From a virus, in the IMG/VR virus record IMGVR_UViG_3300029319_000163, positions 1-37,485 of that record: a stretch of DNA of 37,485 bases; one strand, given 5' to 3'. Below the pieces are notes generated by a model, which had not been told where the DNA came from, ran no database searches, and worked only from the letters and a program-made list of their open reading frames with translations. The position numbers and the translations under genes are program-made. Numbering within the stretch: the stretch's first letter is position 1; the number at the start of each line of letters is the position of its first letter. Shown piece by piece: positions 6,963-36,633 of this stretch.

Positions 6963-7829
6963 ATGGCTGATTCGCTTCAGTTTTACTTGAACCAAGTCGG
7001 CAAATATCCGCTGTTGACGGCTGAACAAGAGATTCAGCTATCTCGGCGGATTTTTCGTTGGCTCGAATTAAAAGATATGCCTGGTCAGCGCACAAAAGAA
7101 GAGCTGACTGAAATGCGATCTGGCAGGAGAGCAAAAGACAAATTTATTCGCCACAACTTGCGCCTTGTTGTGACAGTTGCCAAAAAATACATGGGCAAGA
7201 TCGAAGGCACAAGTATGGAGTTAGACGATCTTATCCAAGAGGGCTACAAGGGCCTTGATCGGGCCTGTGAGAAGTTTGACGGCACTCTAGGGTATAAGTT
7301 CTCGACTTACGCTTATTGGTGGATTAGACAGGCAATAGTCCGCGCCATAGCGACTCAAGTGCGGATGGTTTATGTGCCACATGGCACGATGCAGCAAATG
7401 AAGAGTTTGACGGACTACAAGGCAGAATTTTTCTCTAAACACGACAGAAATCCAACAATGCAAGAGCTGAGCGATTATTTCAATCGGTCAGAGGAGCAAA
7501 TTTTGATGTGGGAGGAAAGATCCCTTCCACACACAAGCCTGGATCGCCTTTGCCATGATGATGGCTCAGCAATTGTGTCGCAAATACCAGACACTCGGCA
7601 TCAGATGTTTGATGCAGATGAGACTGTCAAGTCTGACTCGCAAGAGCGACTAGAGCGAGCATTGGATCAGCTGACAGATCGAGAATATGACATTATTTCT
7701 CGCAAATACTTTGGCAAAGATCGCGTCACTCTTATTGAGATTGCCAAAGATGTTGGCTTGTGCCGTGAAACAGTGCGCAAAATTTTACGAGACGCTACTG
7801 AAAAACTTAAAGATTTAGCCGACGCTTAG
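6963..7829 (+). CDS. RNA polymerase sigma factor, cyanobacterial group-2-like
   Basis: This is a complete sigma-70 without region 1.1. Region 1.2 is 'DSLQFYLNQVGKYPLLTAEQEIQLSRRI' (2-29). Regions 2.1-2.4 are 'AKDKFIRHNLRLVVTVAKKYMG', 'DLIQEGYKGLDRACEKFD' and 'YKFSTYAYWWIRQAIVRAI'. Region 3 runs to 'LPHTSLDRL', and region 4 has 'LTDREYDIISRKYFG' and the recognition helix 'CRETVRKILRDATEKLKDL'. The start pattern is that of cyanobacterial primary/group-2 sigmas. It should bind host core polymerase and steer it to phage promoters. It is last in the recombination operon, 6 bases after ssb, which suggests an early-to-late switch. Its TAG overlaps the stop of the convergent gene. Confidence 0.93.
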   Translation: MADSLQFYLNQVGKYPLLTAEQEIQLSRRIFRWLELKDMPGQRTKEELTEMRSGRRAKDKFIRHNLRLVVTVAKKYMGKIEGTSMELDDLIQEGYKGLDRACEKFDGTLGYKFSTYAYWWIRQAIVRAIATQVRMVYVPHGTMQQMKSLTDYKAEFFSKHDRNPTMQELSDYFNRSEEQILMWEERSLPHTSLDRLCHDDGSAIVSQIPDTRHQMFDADETVKSDSQERLERALDQLTDREYDIISRKYFGKDRVTLIEIAKDVGLCRETVRKILRDATEKLKDLADA

Positions 7830-31556: not shown

Positions 31557-32960
31557 TCAGGTGTTAAGTTGGGGTTCCTCCACTAGAGTGCTTTCCTCAC
31601 TTTCCAATAACCCGCCATTTTGGGTCGCATCAAGCTCTTGATCCACGTCAAAATCATCGCCAAGCACTTCGCCCTCACTTAGCTGCATCAGCAGCGTTTC
31701 TTGCGTGATGGTTCCAGCCGTATAAAGCTGTAGCAAAGCCTGGATCTCTTGCGGTTCAAGTCTGCTGCCGAGGAAGTCGCGGTTTACATAACAACTGCCA
31801 GGTTGATTGTCGCCAAGGTACTGTGCATGAAACTGCAGGCAATTGTCGATCATGTCTTGCATGTTTTGAGCGATGACCATCATGTTGCTATCGCCCTGAC
31901 TGCGATCAATTCTCTTGGCCTCAGCCGTCTCTGCACTCAGTTTTTGCCCTAACACTGCCGACAAACCCAGTTCATTGATTTGCGTCTCAATCTGACTAAG
32001 CCGCTGGAACTGGGAAGCAAATGCGTCAGATGGTGGAGAAATATACTCGGCACTTCCATCAGAGGGAAATGCAATCGCTTCACCCGGCCCTGCAGTTACT
32101 TCCTCGGCAGAGGTTGGAAAGCCGAAAAATGCCAACATTGGCACCGCACTAATGTGCAGTTGATTGTCTAAGTCAGACTGAACCTGATATGCCTTCAGGT
32201 TCAACATTGCAATATCTTCTAATGGCGGCCGAGACTCAAGATAATCGACGCGGTTACTATAAGCGATGCTAAATGGAATTTTATTGAGAGATGTGCGACC
32301 CTCATCCACAATGGCATAATCGCTGTTCTTTTCAGTGCGCCGATAGACCTTGTACTCTCCTGGCGTAAGTACCCGAACCTGTTGTTCCTGTTTCTCCCCA
32401 AACTCGCCATCAGCTACGGTTACTGTCTCTTGAAGTCGTAATTGCGTTAGAACTTGTTGTCCGTCTTGAATCTCAACTCTCCAACCTAGGATCTGGCGCG
32501 GAGTATATCGGACCCAATAGGGTCGGCCTTTGCCATCAGTCGGTGCATCTACTAAGACGCCAACGTGCCCATAACGAATGGCTTGACGCGCAGTTTCATA
32601 AGTCCAAACATTTAGATCGTCTTGCAGATCAACATTGAAGAGTTGCTCGCGAATTTGATCTGATGTGTCATTAAGTCGAACAGGCTTGCGAGTCAACATG
32701 CCCGCCAACATGCGCTCTAGCCGCTGATAGTAAGGTGGACAAATGGATGTAGCCAGCCGACGATCATATGACTCATCACTTTCTCGCAGTTCTTGTGGCA
32801 AATAACGCCGATGCCTTCGCCTAATTTCATAAGTCCCACCAATTAGATCCTCAATTAGGACCCAATGTGGTTGCATGTTATGCCATGCGCTATTTTCGTC
32901 TTGAACTTTGGCGACAGTCTTGTGATGCTGCCGATCATAATGCTGAAAGCCAGAATACAC
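31557..32960 (-). CDS. portal protein (DUF4055 type)
   Basis: 467 residues. 'WVLIEDLIGGTYEIRRRHRRYLPQELRESDESYDRRLATSICPPYYQRLERMLAGMLTRKPVRL' is the typical DUF4055 opening (i.D...G...vr..g..YLP.......e.Y..Rl..a...n...rtl..l.G.v..kp). It continues with 'ARQAIRYGHVGVLVDAP', 'ILGWRVE' and an adaptor segment. It forms the 12-mer portal at the capsid vertex. Order TerL-portal-MuF is standard. Confidence 0.92.
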   Translation of the reverse strand: MYSGFQHYDRQHHKTVAKVQDENSAWHNMQPHWVLIEDLIGGTYEIRRRHRRYLPQELRESDESYDRRLATSICPPYYQRLERMLAGMLTRKPVRLNDTSDQIREQLFNVDLQDDLNVWTYETARQAIRYGHVGVLVDAPTDGKGRPYWVRYTPRQILGWRVEIQDGQQVLTQLRLQETVTVADGEFGEKQEQQVRVLTPGEYKVYRRTEKNSDYAIVDEGRTSLNKIPFSIAYSNRVDYLESRPPLEDIAMLNLKAYQVQSDLDNQLHISAVPMLAFFGFPTSAEEVTAGPGEAIAFPSDGSAEYISPPSDAFASQFQRLSQIETQINELGLSAVLGQKLSAETAEAKRIDRSQGDSNMMVIAQNMQDMIDNCLQFHAQYLGDNQPGSCYVNRDFLGSRLEPQEIQALLQLYTAGTITQETLLMQLSEGEVLGDDFDVDQELDATQNGGLLESEESTLVEEPQLNT

Positions 32961-32991: not shown

Positions 32992-34335
32992 TCAATAAAT
33001 CCTAATGCCAGTGCCACGACCAGCACGAGCATGAAGCGGATTAAATTGTCGCCAGACTAAATAACCCAGCGCATCATTCATGTGATCATAGCCGGCGTCT
33101 TTATCTGGGTCGCCATTGTCTTTGTAACTTTGTAGTTCGAGGCACTCAATTAGTCGCTTACAGTTTTCTTGCACTTGGAGCCGCACTTCTCCTTTCCCAT
33201 TCTCCAACACAGCTTGAACAGAAGATACCCGATCACGTACTGGAGGATTAGCACGGGGAGATTGATTGCTGAATCCATAGGATTCGAGAATCTGGATGTC
33301 TGTGCGCGAGGCATTTGTGCTGCGGTTGCCACCAGAGGCATCAGGGTAAATGTACGTTTTGCGGCCACTGTATCTGCGCTTAATCTCTTGGGCAAGTGAG
33401 TCGGTGTCTTTTGAGCCCGAGACCTCATCGATCACCACAAGCTTATTGTCAAGCCTTACGGCGATCACTGCAGACATATTGTTAATGTTGAAGTCCAAAC
33501 CACAGTGAATCGGCTCAGTTGCTGCTGAGACGGCTTTGCACACATGCTTTTCTCGGCTAAACCTGTCATAAACTTGCCCCATTGTGAGGTTCGTAAATTC
33601 TCCGTTTAGATATGCCTGTAAAGTCTTCGGATCATAATTACTGCGCATTCTGTCAATAAAATCCATCGGCAAATGTGGATTATCGGTAGTGCGCATCTTG
33701 ATCAGCTTGCGATCATCTCGCTGTTGCGCCTCTTCCGTGCCAAATGTCTGCCACATCCACCTGAAGCCCTCAGGCGTCGATGATGCTGCAAATTGCCGCT
33801 GATTACCAGAACGTAGTCGGCCCAAGATCTTAGGAAAAGCCTTGTTGGCAATACTTGGCGCGACAGTATCAATCTCATCGCACAAGACCCAGGCGAGGTT
33901 CAAGCCCACAATGCGGCTCCAACTCTCAAAACTACGGCAAATTATTTTTGTATCTCCGCCTGGCAAATGCAAAACATATTCTGGCAGTGGCGATGATCTA
34001 AAACTATGTGGGATGCCATGGCGATCTAAAAAGTCGTCAAAATCATTCAACCAAATATCGCGTACAAGTGGGCCAGTTGGTTCCATCACGCAGCCAATAA
34101 ATCCTTGATTTGCAAGCGCCAAGATCACAGCTTTTGCGCACATTGCAAAAGTTTTACCCGATCCATAGCCTGCACTTAAGCCGAGAATTTCTGTGCTGTT
34201 GTCATTAACAAAGTCCAGCTGACCTGGATGCAACTCGGCTTTTATGTTGTCGAGCAACGTCGCAGCATGAACCCGCTTGCCACCACTATCAAGGCGGTCT
34301 AAAACGCACCCAACCCTATCTGACAGAATCGACAC
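32992..34335 (-). CDS. terL: terminase large subunit
   Basis: 447 residues: ATPase with 'GLSAGYGSGKT' (Walker A ~56-62) and 'LAWVLCDEIDT' (Walker B, catalytic Glu ~154), and coupling segment 'SSTPEGFRWMW'. C-terminal RNase-H-like nuclease: 'HCGLDFNINNMSAVIAV' (Asp281), 'VVIDEVSG' (Glu304), 'YIYPDASGGNRST' (Asp332), 'NDALGYLVW'. It drives DNA packaging and makes the genome cut. It overlaps TerS by one base. All catalytic positions are intact. Confidence 0.95.
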   Translation of the reverse strand: MSILSDRVGCVLDRLDSGGKRVHAATLLDNIKAELHPGQLDFVNDNSTEILGLSAGYGSGKTFAMCAKAVILALANQGFIGCVMEPTGPLVRDIWLNDFDDFLDRHGIPHSFRSSPLPEYVLHLPGGDTKIICRSFESWSRIVGLNLAWVLCDEIDTVAPSIANKAFPKILGRLRSGNQRQFAASSTPEGFRWMWQTFGTEEAQQRDDRKLIKMRTTDNPHLPMDFIDRMRSNYDPKTLQAYLNGEFTNLTMGQVYDRFSREKHVCKAVSAATEPIHCGLDFNINNMSAVIAVRLDNKLVVIDEVSGSKDTDSLAQEIKRRYSGRKTYIYPDASGGNRSTNASRTDIQILESYGFSNQSPRANPPVRDRVSSVQAVLENGKGEVRLQVQENCKRLIECLELQSYKDNGDPDKDAGYDHMNDALGYLVWRQFNPLHARAGRGTGIRIY

Positions 34336-34685
34336 TATTTATCAACTTGGCCGAGCCTGGCAAGTGTGTTGACAGCGCCTAGTGCGATATTTAGCTGATT
34401 AGTGCGACGCGCTTCCATCTGAATACTGGCGGCTTGCTGCATAAGTTCGGCAACAAATTGTGCGCGATCAACCTCAAAATCTTTCATAATCATCTCCTTC
34501 ACATGCGGCATATATTTCTTCGCAGTTTCTTCACTAATTCCCCACTGTTGTGTAGCAAAGCGAATACAATCCGCAGTTGTGCCACCGTTTCTAATTAGAT
34601 TAAATAACCGATTGTAACGATAAAGTTTTTCTGCCGCAGATGCACGCCGAGAAACTGGTTTTCCATCTTTCCGGGGACGTGGCAT
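34335..34685 (-). CDS. terS: terminase small subunit
   Basis: 116 residues: basic N-terminus ('MPRPRKDGKPVSRR') with helices 'LYRYNRLFNLIRNGGTTADCIRFATQQWGISEETAKKYMPHVKEMI'. The middle is an HTH-like TerS DNA-binding unit, and the helical end 'AELMQQAASIQMEARRTNQLNIALGAVNTLARL' is the oligomer part. It recognises the packaging start on the DNA. Start overlaps ABC-GNAT stop by one base, indicating coupled expression. Confidence 0.87.
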   Translation of the reverse strand: MPRPRKDGKPVSRRASAAEKLYRYNRLFNLIRNGGTTADCIRFATQQWGISEETAKKYMPHVKEMIMKDFEVDRAQFVAELMQQAASIQMEARRTNQLNIALGAVNTLARLGQVDK

Positions 34686-35827
34686 TACTTAATTCCTAGT
34701 GCTGCGGCTCCTGCAGGGTTCCTAGGTCCACAATAGCGGAAACTTGCCGTAATTCGGTCTGTGCCCAATGCTTGTCGCCACTGCGTCATCTCTTGCGTCT
34801 TAGCTTTTGTCGCCCTTCTGGCCCTCTGATCGCAATTATTTGAAGGTTTTCGGGTCATATTCCATAGTGGCGACTTCGCCCTATATGCAACCATTGCCGG
34901 GTTAGCTGTGACCGAGAGATAATATCGGCCACGAGTTCCATGGAAACAAGAGGCGATGAAGTTTGACATTGCATTGCCGATGCCTACACCTTGGAAGTCA
35001 GGATGACACACGGTTCGGTGTTCTTTCCACCTTGTTCCTTGCGGACATGGCATCGTGAGCACCGCAGTAAATGCGACAGGTCGGCCCTGATAGAAAGCGC
35101 AAAAACATTTCGCGCCGTTGTGAATATCTCGGTTTAGATAGTGAAACTTACTGAAGATCGGCCAGTATTGCTTGCCTGATACGGGTTGAACCGAGAGAGT
35201 GATTTGGGGTCGGTGAAGACAGTCCCGCGCAAAGCGGGAGGTAGATGGATCAAACACCCAGTCGGGTTGCAACCAGTCGAGGATGTCATAATGGCAGGCG
35301 ACTGCTACAAATTTTTGCCCGCGTTTACGAACTGCTTTGGCGATCGCTGCACTACCAATTTGTGCAACGGTACGATCAACAACAGATGTAAACTCGTCAA
35401 CGACAAACAAGTCAGGCGACTCGGCTAAACCTCTGGCGATACCGACTCTAAATTGTTCGCCATTGGAAAGAACATGATACGGCCTCAACCAGTTTGGTGG
35501 CGAGCTAAAGCCAACAGATGACAGCAAAGCCGTGATGTCCTTGATAGGCATCGACTTTGGGAAAGAATCTACGATGCTTTTATCGCCTGCCCAGGTAAAG
35601 TCTTGGTCAATTTTGTCGCCAAATAGTTCCCTGGCAATAGTCGTCTTACCACTGCCACTAGGGCCGACAATAACGCCAATGTTCCAATCGAACGTTTCGA
35701 TAGGTACATCGATGTCATAGGAAACTGTGGACTTTGGGGATGGAACAATGTCAAAAAGTCCCTCCAATTGCGCGACCCTAGCCGTCCTTTTGATTTCAGA
35801 CGACTTAGAAAAATTAAGATGCGGCAT
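34685..35827 (-). CDS. ABC-type ATPase fused to a GNAT acyltransferase domain (COG2401-like)
   Basis: A fusion of 380 residues. N-terminal ABC ATPase (~1-200) is complete: Walker A GPSGSGKT (55-62), signature 'HVLSNGEQFRVGIARGLA' (LSNGEQ at ~120-125), Walker B 'DLFVVDEF' (catalytic Glu145), H-loop His179. C-terminal GNAT (~215-380): 'FSKFHYLNRDIHNGAKCFCAFYQGRPVAFTAVL', motif A 'HPDFQGVGIG' (acyl-CoA pyrophosphate loop), then beta-rich end. No membrane segments, so not a transporter. The architecture matches COG2401 (function unresolved). It lies between ParB and TerS with overlaps, suggesting DNA modification or packaging control. Confidence 0.9.
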   Translation of the reverse strand: MPHLNFSKSSEIKRTARVAQLEGLFDIVPSPKSTVSYDIDVPIETFDWNIGVIVGPSGSGKTTIARELFGDKIDQDFTWAGDKSIVDSFPKSMPIKDITALLSSVGFSSPPNWLRPYHVLSNGEQFRVGIARGLAESPDLFVVDEFTSVVDRTVAQIGSAAIAKAVRKRGQKFVAVACHYDILDWLQPDWVFDPSTSRFARDCLHRPQITLSVQPVSGKQYWPIFSKFHYLNRDIHNGAKCFCAFYQGRPVAFTAVLTMPCPQGTRWKEHRTVCHPDFQGVGIGNAMSNFIASCFHGTRGRYYLSVTANPAMVAYRAKSPLWNMTRKPSNNCDQRARRATKAKTQEMTQWRQALGTDRITASFRYCGPRNPAGAAALGIK

Positions 35828-35829
35828 GT

Positions 35830-36414
35830 TCAGGCATTCATAGCTTTACAATCGAGCCCCTGACCCATCAAGTAGTCAAGAGTCGCCGTTTGTTCCTCTT
35901 CATTGCGGCAGTTGACAATGATCTGAAAGACGGCATCAATCTTGCCTGATTGATCGTCTACTTCCTCATCTTCATTGAAGTCCGACTCATTATCAGCAAG
36001 AATTGCCATAAGCTCGTCATCAGAGAACCACGGCTCAATGTCATGCTCACTCGACAGAGTGTTAAGCATTTCTTTATCCCATTCGGCCAACTCAGCAGTC
36101 CTATTGTCGGCCAATGCAAGGCCCACTTTCGACTCTTCAGTTAGTCCAGTCCGACGTACAGCAATTACTTCGTCGCCGTCGGTCTCAATGATTCGGACTT
36201 TATCAATACCCGAAGCGGCTGCTGCTTCAACCGTGCCGTTCCCAGCAAGAATGCGGTTCGATTCATCAATAACAATCGATCGGGCAGCACCATAGCGGTT
36301 AATGGACTCCTCAATCAGATTTTTCGACTGAACAGTGCGTTTTCTGGCGTTCTTATGGTCCTGTTTTAGGGATGAAAGCGGTTGTAATGCGCCATCTTTG
36401 CCGCTCATCTGCAC
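35830..36414 (-). CDS. ParB-like nuclease/partition-domain protein
   Basis: 194 residues. 'LQPLSSLKQDHKNARKRTVQSKNLIEESINRYGAARSIVIDESNRILAGNGTVEAAAASGIDKVRII' fits the ParB/Sulfiredoxin-like fold: 'l.p...N.R....l..SI...G....iv.d....i.aGhg...Aa...G...v'. 'ALADNRTAELAEWDKEMLNTL' is the usual continuation in phage copies. The C-terminal part is acidic ('DESDFNEDEEVDD'). Such phage ParB domains often pair with DNA-modifying enzymes and may bind or nick DNA. It is first in the late block. MQMSG offers two starts (36414 or 36408). Confidence 0.85.
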   Translation of the reverse strand: MQMSGKDGALQPLSSLKQDHKNARKRTVQSKNLIEESINRYGAARSIVIDESNRILAGNGTVEAAAASGIDKVRIIETDGDEVIAVRRTGLTEESKVGLALADNRTAELAEWDKEMLNTLSSEHDIEPWFSDDELMAILADNESDFNEDEEVDDQSGKIDAVFQIIVNCRNEEEQTATLDYLMGQGLDCKAMNA

Positions 36415-36613: not shown

Positions 36614-36633
36614 CCCTGGATTTTACCCCAGGG
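36614..36633 (-). terminator. terminator of the right-end small-gene operon
   Basis: CCCTGG (36614-36619) pairs with CCAGGG (36628-36633) around an 8-base loop. On the minus strand the stem is followed by TTTTCTG. It lies 15 bases past the stop of the 36649-36849 gene. The T-run is short, so efficiency may be partial. Confidence 0.65.

Follow-up and report, generated by a model that had tools for sequence, protein, structure and literature searches.

The locus described here raises the question of why a phage should encode an ABC ATPase fused to a GNAT acyltransferase, and this between a ParB-like gene and the genes of its terminase. The window, i.e., the whole stretch of DNA analysed, is a virus record of 37,485 bases. 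We consider it likely that the two genes constitute a ParB-guided, ATP-dependent cassette by which phage DNA is acylated. The core of this idea is not new, as the passages of Iyer et al. 2021 (PMC7824862) considered here cite an earlier prediction (Iyer et al. 2013) according to which ABC-coupled GNATs acylate a DNA base. Described here in addition to those passages are a ParB/tail partner, cassettes with a formyltransferase or with PanD, and positions in the slots of mom and of TET/JBP-type enzymes. The gene content, the integrity of the domains, their conservation, their linkage and the exchange of genes in one slot are observations, which are presented in turn.

Organization of the locus

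All genes concerned are situated on the minus strand, in the order ParB, ABC-GNAT, TerS, TerL and portal, which confirms the position at the head of the packaging operon described in the sequence-only reading. The ParB-like gene (35830-36414; 194 aa, GTG start) is separated by only two bases (TGA-AC-ATG) from the gene of the ABC-GNAT fusion (34685-35827; 380 aa), and the latter overlaps by one base (TAATG) with the gene of a TerS-like protein (34335..34685); both open reading frames, the gap and the overlap were found exactly as that reading had placed them. The TerS-like protein is recognized by its position preceding TerL, by phrog_34910 and by its similarity (33% identity, E 4e-28) to CPAG_00036 of phage MED4-184, the orthologue before TerL in that phage. 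The terminase large subunit (32992..34335; Terminase_6N, 5.6e-12) and the portal protein (31557..32960; phrog_145, 1.9e-113; DUF4055) follow. TerL is 68-74% identical to that of the marine cyanosiphoviruses S-H1, KBS-S-2A, MED4-117 and MED4-184; the host is therefore probably a marine picocyanobacterium. HIP1 sites are not enriched.

Upstream of the ParB-like gene, a terminator-like hairpin (CCCTGG...CCAGGG, 36614-36633) may insulate the cassette and the packaging operon from the preceding genes. At a distance from the locus, positions 6963-7829 of the plus strand encode a sigma-70 factor with regions 1.2, 2, 3 and 4, near genes for RusA, a PD-(D/E)XK nuclease and a Rad52-like protein.

The ABC-GNAT fusion protein

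The ABC ATPase domain comprises residues 1-200 (35228..35827, minus strand) and the GNAT acyltransferase domain residues 201-380, with the stop codon (34685..35227, minus strand). Both exceed their Pfam cut-offs (ABC_tran, 4.2e-9; Acetyltransf_1, 7e-5). The complete set of ABC motifs previously claimed is present, with Walker A (GPSGSGKT, 55-62), the signature LSNGEQ (120-125), Walker B with the catalytic glutamate (D144-E145) and the H-loop (H179), and G55, K61, S121, E145 and H179 are invariant in the alignment of 45 homologues. In the GNAT domain, F225, H229-Y230-L231, R271, P276, Q279-G280-x-G282, P310 and F363 are invariant among the same homologues, and the acyl-CoA binding motif R/Q-x-x-G-x-G/A, likewise claimed before, was recovered as Q279-G280-x-G282-x-G284. 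AlphaFold predicts a two-domain protein (mean pLDDT 85), of which residues 201-380, when modelled separately, adopt a GNAT fold (pTM 0.81). The protein is a full-length member of phrog_11143 (3.3e-107 over residues 9-369), a family listed with unknown function. A related GNAT of phage Cyrano is annotated as an MK0520-type ABC ATPase fused to a predicted acetyltransferase, which is the description of COG2401; a full-text literature search for COG2401 yielded no paper.

Two more familiar roles of such proteins were considered and rejected. No permease gene adjoins the fusion, the neighbours being the ParB-like, TerS, TerL and portal genes, and the fused partner is a GNAT and not a permease, which argues against a membrane ABC transporter. 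Concerning a restriction-modification system, no cognate restriction enzyme is found next to the cassette, where only the ParB-like and packaging genes are situated. PADLOC returned only partial ABC matches (mad3).

The best fold matches of the GNAT part (Foldseek, VIA; VIA Z up to 12.6) are generic GNATs, among them many protein N-terminal acetyltransferases, and this speaks against DNA acylation. The protein might instead acetylate RNA polymerase, a ribosomal protein or a defence protein during host takeover, with ParB as a mere neighbour. The matches include Naa50, Ard1 and RimI, in hhalign the GNAT profile prefers SpeG (2e-4) and RimI (8e-4) to Mom (E 0.31, 37 Mom representatives), and RNA polymerase is a known target of phage GNATs such as Rac (PMC7824862). 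A resemblance to RimI and Nat enzymes is, however, generic among GNATs, and a protein substrate would leave unexplained the fixed ParB/tail partner of a type shared with Mom, the mom-like position, the exchange with ParB/methyltransferase/TET-JBP-like genes, and the formyltransferase and PanD genes, all of which are described below. We therefore regard protein acetylation as possible, yet unlikely.

An RNA substrate would be a further possibility, in that the ATPase-GNAT protein might acylate a base of tRNA or rRNA in the way TmcA forms N4-acetylcytidine. TmcA (2zpa) appears at rank 30 of the Foldseek matches and likewise combines an ATPase with a GNAT, and some loci contain, near the fusion, a cluster of ORFs one of which encodes an ASCH-domain protein. 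The ATPase of TmcA is, however, of the helicase type and not an ABC ATPase, and the partners of the present family are linked to DNA (ParB, Mom-type loci, the TET/JBP-like slot), such that modification of RNA, although possible, appears rather improbable.

The ParB-like partner and its tail

The ParB-like domain (35938..36414, minus strand) is assigned on the basis of PHROG families (phrog_620, 2.3e-27) and of the survey's own ParB HMM; Pfam ParB_N is not reached by the window copy, and homologues score over or near its cut-off. The remainder of the gene (35830..35937, minus strand, including the stop codon) encodes a C-terminal tail, which is recognized by its alignment and by phrog_28816 matches and which ends with FQIIVNCRNEEEQTATLDYLMGQGLDCKAMNA. 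The common form of this tail is approximately YxVVVxCxDExxQxxxYxxLxxxGxxxKVxxV. The protein thus shares a ParB-like domain with the ParB partition protein, but it is only 194 aa long and possesses a different C-terminal tail, and no ParA gene was noticed next to it. For the nicking activity that had been suggested for it, nothing was found in support.

The linkage between the two genes, proposed from the window alone, holds across the family. Of 90 loci, 79 offer more than 600 bases of upstream sequence, and in 68 of these a ParB HMM match is situated just upstream of the fusion. Clustering at 70% identity left 42 testable non-redundant loci, and a ParB/tail partner is found directly upstream in 33 of them, compared to a baseline of 1/581 for other ORFs; some of the nine loci lacking the partner (e.g., L130 and L029) represent effects of ORF calling. 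Overlaps between partner and fusion mostly amount to 22 bases (11 loci) or 4 bases (10 loci). Jumbo phages, T4-like phages and some other carriers possess no ParB partner near the fusion gene. Transposable phages lack the ParB domain and possess a short protein consisting of the tail only (mostly 47-66 aa), which overlaps the start of the fusion. The tail is kept where the ParB domain is lost and is therefore the more constant element; it probably binds the ABC-GNAT protein.

Genes with a ParBc domain accompany many phage base modifiers, including the proven cytosine modifier CmoX, and their role is called unknown (PMC12783734). CmoX and CmoY of Synechococcus phage S-B43 are similar to the present system in being phage base modification enzymes often found with a ParBc-domain gene, whereas CmoX is a carboxymethyltransferase using carboxy-SAM and not an acyl-CoA enzyme (PMC12783734). 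Proteins in which a ParB-CTPase fold is joined to a modifying domain, with a methyltransferase or acetyltransferase as partner, are also described, and a bacterial ParB-acetyltransferase fusion bound GTP (PMC12704722). Despite this similarity in partners, the ParB-like protein studied here is short, is encoded by a gene of its own, ends in a conserved tail and has an ABC-GNAT as its partner.

Distribution of the family

The two domains are not always fused. Separate ABC and GNAT genes exist in phages of Lactococcus, Streptococcus and Oenococcus, still behind a ParB-like gene, and in the Tenacibaculum phage pT24. The pT24 system, which represents the published ABC-coupled GNAT system and is a direct homologue of the window protein, has the same two domains as the latter, but with split genes and no ParB gene beside them. 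In SSU5-type phage-plasmids and in phages of Rhizobium and Pseudomonas syringae, an ABC gene and a divergent GNAT are accompanied by two ParB genes.

In cellular genomes, a scan of contigs with generic ABC patterns recovered only four true members, and sampled phyla were searched for the family instead. Members were present in 16 of 246 sampled genomes from the Planctomycetota, the phylum of Aeoliella, and in 1 of 398 from the phylum of Sodalis; weak matches came from 2 of 398 genomes in the phylum of Sporosarcina and from 1 of 295 in an archaeal phylum. In the strong cellular cases examined, the ParB gene or its tail is present. Two loci from the phylum of Aeoliella (L310, L311) contain ParB and ABC-GNAT among conserved neighbours that are not phage-like (PIG-L-like and NagB-like by eye); these copies are perhaps host-domesticated.

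Concerning the packaging genes, TerL is situated within 4 kb of the fusion in 28 of the 46 loci with enough sequence. The linkage to the terminase reported for the window is thus real in many relatives, yet it is not general, as transposable phages carry the fusion at the genome end, opposite the transposase, and jumbo phages in unrelated regions. This bears on the packaging checkpoint that had been proposed as an alternative, in which the ABC ATPase and ParB would mark or license DNA for the terminase and acylation would regulate TerS or TerL. The operon with TerS, TerL and portal in the window and many relatives would fit such a factor. The gene is, however, often far from the packaging genes and is absent in some close relatives (KBS-S-2A and S-H1 possess no such genes before TerL), and for this reason a role in packaging is very improbable.

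Comparison with Mom

Mom of phage Mu (PDB 8bv8), which forms N6-carbamoylmethyladenine, is a GNAT superfamily enzyme as well, and the sequence-only reading had drawn on it for comparison. With regard to homology, this comparison failed: the hhalign value of 0.31 is not significant, membership in the Mom family or a Mom-like sequence origin was rejected by this profile comparison, and a PHROG search with the window fusion found no match to the Mom family phrog_1384. The Mom structure is absent among the best 50 fold matches, in which generic GNATs rank first, and a Mom model reaches rank 17 with a TM of 0.48 in the BFVD fold search. An HY motif shared in register (KHYSR in Mom, FHYLN in this family) was discarded, the alignment being non-significant. 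In the control search with phrog_1384, Haloferax volcanii also matches.

What does stand is a similarity in partner and in genome position. With Mom of Microbacterium phage Antuna as query, 80 loci were retrieved, and a ParB-like gene is situated directly upstream of mom in 65 of the 68 with enough upstream sequence. Among the matches listed, this gene overlaps mom in all loci and the tails of the ParB proteins end in a CPxC zinc-ribbon-like motif. The same ParB domain thus appears, by sequence, to serve Mom, a DNA modifier by homology, with another tail, i.e., a zinc ribbon in place of the YxVVVxCxDExxQ tail of the fusion partners. No ABC domain was found at the Antuna-type mom loci examined (L166-L245), where the pair of ParB-zinc-ribbon protein and Mom resembles a longer version of Com-Mom.

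In Mu, com-mom is located at the right end. Of 37 records in which the locus is tail-only or of the formyltransferase type, 13 contain a Mu-type transposase domain, and in complete-looking transposable records the fusion is situated at the end opposite the transposase; in one record of 35.4 kb, for example, the transposase lies at 3.4 kb and the fusion at the end. These relatives thus share with Mu the genome-end position and a short upstream gene that overlaps the next. None of the 23 tested carriers of the fusion contains a member of the mom family, whereas Mu, the positive control, does. Jumbo phage PX29 possesses both Mom and the fusion, and the two are therefore not strictly exclusive. 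Mom lacks an ABC domain. Since it has no profile-level match to this GNAT, the relation is one of functional analogy and not of membership.

Exchange of genes in the slot before the terminase

In the cultured Prochlorococcus phages MED4-184 and MED4-117, the slot before TerS and TerL is occupied by a ParB-domain protein, an FkbM methyltransferase and a TET/JBP-like oxygenase. The domain search was carried out on the MED4-184 copies; the match to the TET/JBP oxygenase family (3e-6) is below the Pfam cut-off, and HQD and RHG motifs are present in the sequence. In the annotation of MED4-184 (L318:1791-3915), the ParB-domain protein CPAG_00033 is named a DNA methylase, and the oxygenase-like CPAG_00035 a queuine tRNA-ribosyltransferase. 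This cassette is similar to that of the window in its position before orthologous TerS and TerL and in being led by a ParB-like gene, whereas its enzymes are the FkbM methyltransferase and the 2OG-Fe oxygenase-like protein, with neither ABC nor GNAT. KBS-S-2A and S-H1 possess neither cassette before TerL, and none of the four cyanosiphoviruses is among the fusion carriers listed. In these sequences, a ParB-led slot is thus occupied by differing enzymes, which probably modify DNA.

Accessory genes

Several relatives carry additional enzymes next to the fusion. The formyltransferase (Formyl_trans_N) of Pseudomonas phage Komp_PAO1_1, used as sole query, retrieved 25 loci, in all of which the fusion is situated directly upstream. 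Among solved structures, it is closest to 10-formyl-tetrahydrofolate dehydrogenase and other formyltransferases, and FHPSLLPRHRG as well as the aspartate of DDGxDTG are retained. Fusions with this gene cluster on the tree (26 of 30 leaves, at a weak support of 0.41), and the window falls outside the group. The product gp3 of Gordonia phage Axumite (L088:1805-2452), annotated as a tRNA-methyltransferase, is such a formyltransferase (PF00551, phrog_9240) tied to an ABC-GNAT gene.

PanD (aspartate decarboxylase) follows the fusion directly in 4/4 loci retrieved with a PanD query, including ones that are 52% identical; the copies contain the GS cleavage site and match solved PanD. In the Rhodococcus phage Jace and in loci L128-L130, PanD is followed by a CoA-transferase III-like protein of 227-232 aa. 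The activity of the latter is doubtful, because the proteins are short, the family match (2e-8 for Jace) is limited to the N-terminal part, and matches to solved structures are weak or lacking (none for the L130 copy, which is similar to that of Jace).

The simplest reading of these genes would be the supply of a donor, i.e., of a formyl group or of beta-alanine, the latter perhaps activated as a CoA ester. Alternatively, PanD might supply CoA, and the formyl group might be added to an amine already attached to DNA. Considered as metabolic enzymes, PanD, the formyltransferase and the CoA-transferase-like protein would also suit the acylation of nucleotides or another metabolite during infection, as a form of auxiliary metabolism. 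The ParB and ABC domains have no obvious use for a free metabolite, however, and the association with Mom-type and TET/JBP-like loci is likewise at odds with it; we attach hardly any probability to a small-molecule substrate. The literature searched contained no papers joining PanD, CoA-transferase and ParB in phage DNA modification, and the text of the MetaGPA study does not mention these enzymes.

A phage protein of 214 aa named aspartate 1-decarboxylase (BFVD A0A8S5PZ92) matches the GNAT model in fold, and might possibly reflect a further link between PanD and GNAT or a misannotation. Of 47 non-redundant loci, 5 have in the vicinity of the fusion a group of ORFs that includes an ASCH-domain protein (e.g., L035:7088-7537, minus strand); such domains have a connection with modified bases.

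Proposed function and its implications

Between the two functions previously suggested for the locus, DNA modification is the best supported, by the linkage to ParB, the mom-like position and the exchange of genes in the slot, whereas the packaging checkpoint is not. From these observations we infer DNA as the substrate, together with a role for each part, the kind of acyl group and a benefit of protection. The ParB-like protein would probably bind or track along phage DNA, and its C-terminal tail would probably recruit the ABC-GNAT protein, the ABC domains of which would, with ATP, probably dimerise on the DNA and open the duplex or hold it in position. Acyl-CoA would be the donor for the GNAT domain, which would acylate an exocyclic amine on a base, and the acylated product would shield the phage DNA against host nucleases. 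No accessory donor gene is situated next to the cassette in the window, so that it may use host acyl-CoA, probably one such as acetyl-CoA. In relatives, the additional genes apparently provide a particular donor or complete the group, which would be formyl from 10-formyl-tetrahydrofolate, or PanD-made beta-alanine perhaps activated by the CoA-transferase-like protein.

If DNA acylation is correct, phages of cyanobacteria, Lactococcus, Streptococcus, Pseudomonas and Gordonia, SSU5-type phage-plasmids and others would carry an uncharacterised base modification, encoded by genes that are mostly annotated as hypothetical protein or iron transporter, and the accessory genes would give specific predictions of mass shifts. 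More tentatively, and in our judgement somewhat less likely than not, these systems might constitute a modular class of DNA hypermodification. A ParB protein would act through its tail as the adaptor that brings an ABC-powered GNAT to phage DNA, and the chemistry would depend on interchangeable donor genes (formyl; beta-alanyl, from PanD plus a CoA-transferase) or on host acetyl-CoA as in the window; by means of other tails, the domain of the adaptor would also work with Mom and TET/JBP-type enzymes. The ParB domain common to these systems, with a tail specific to each, offers a clue as to why ParB-like genes accompany many DNA modifiers of phages.
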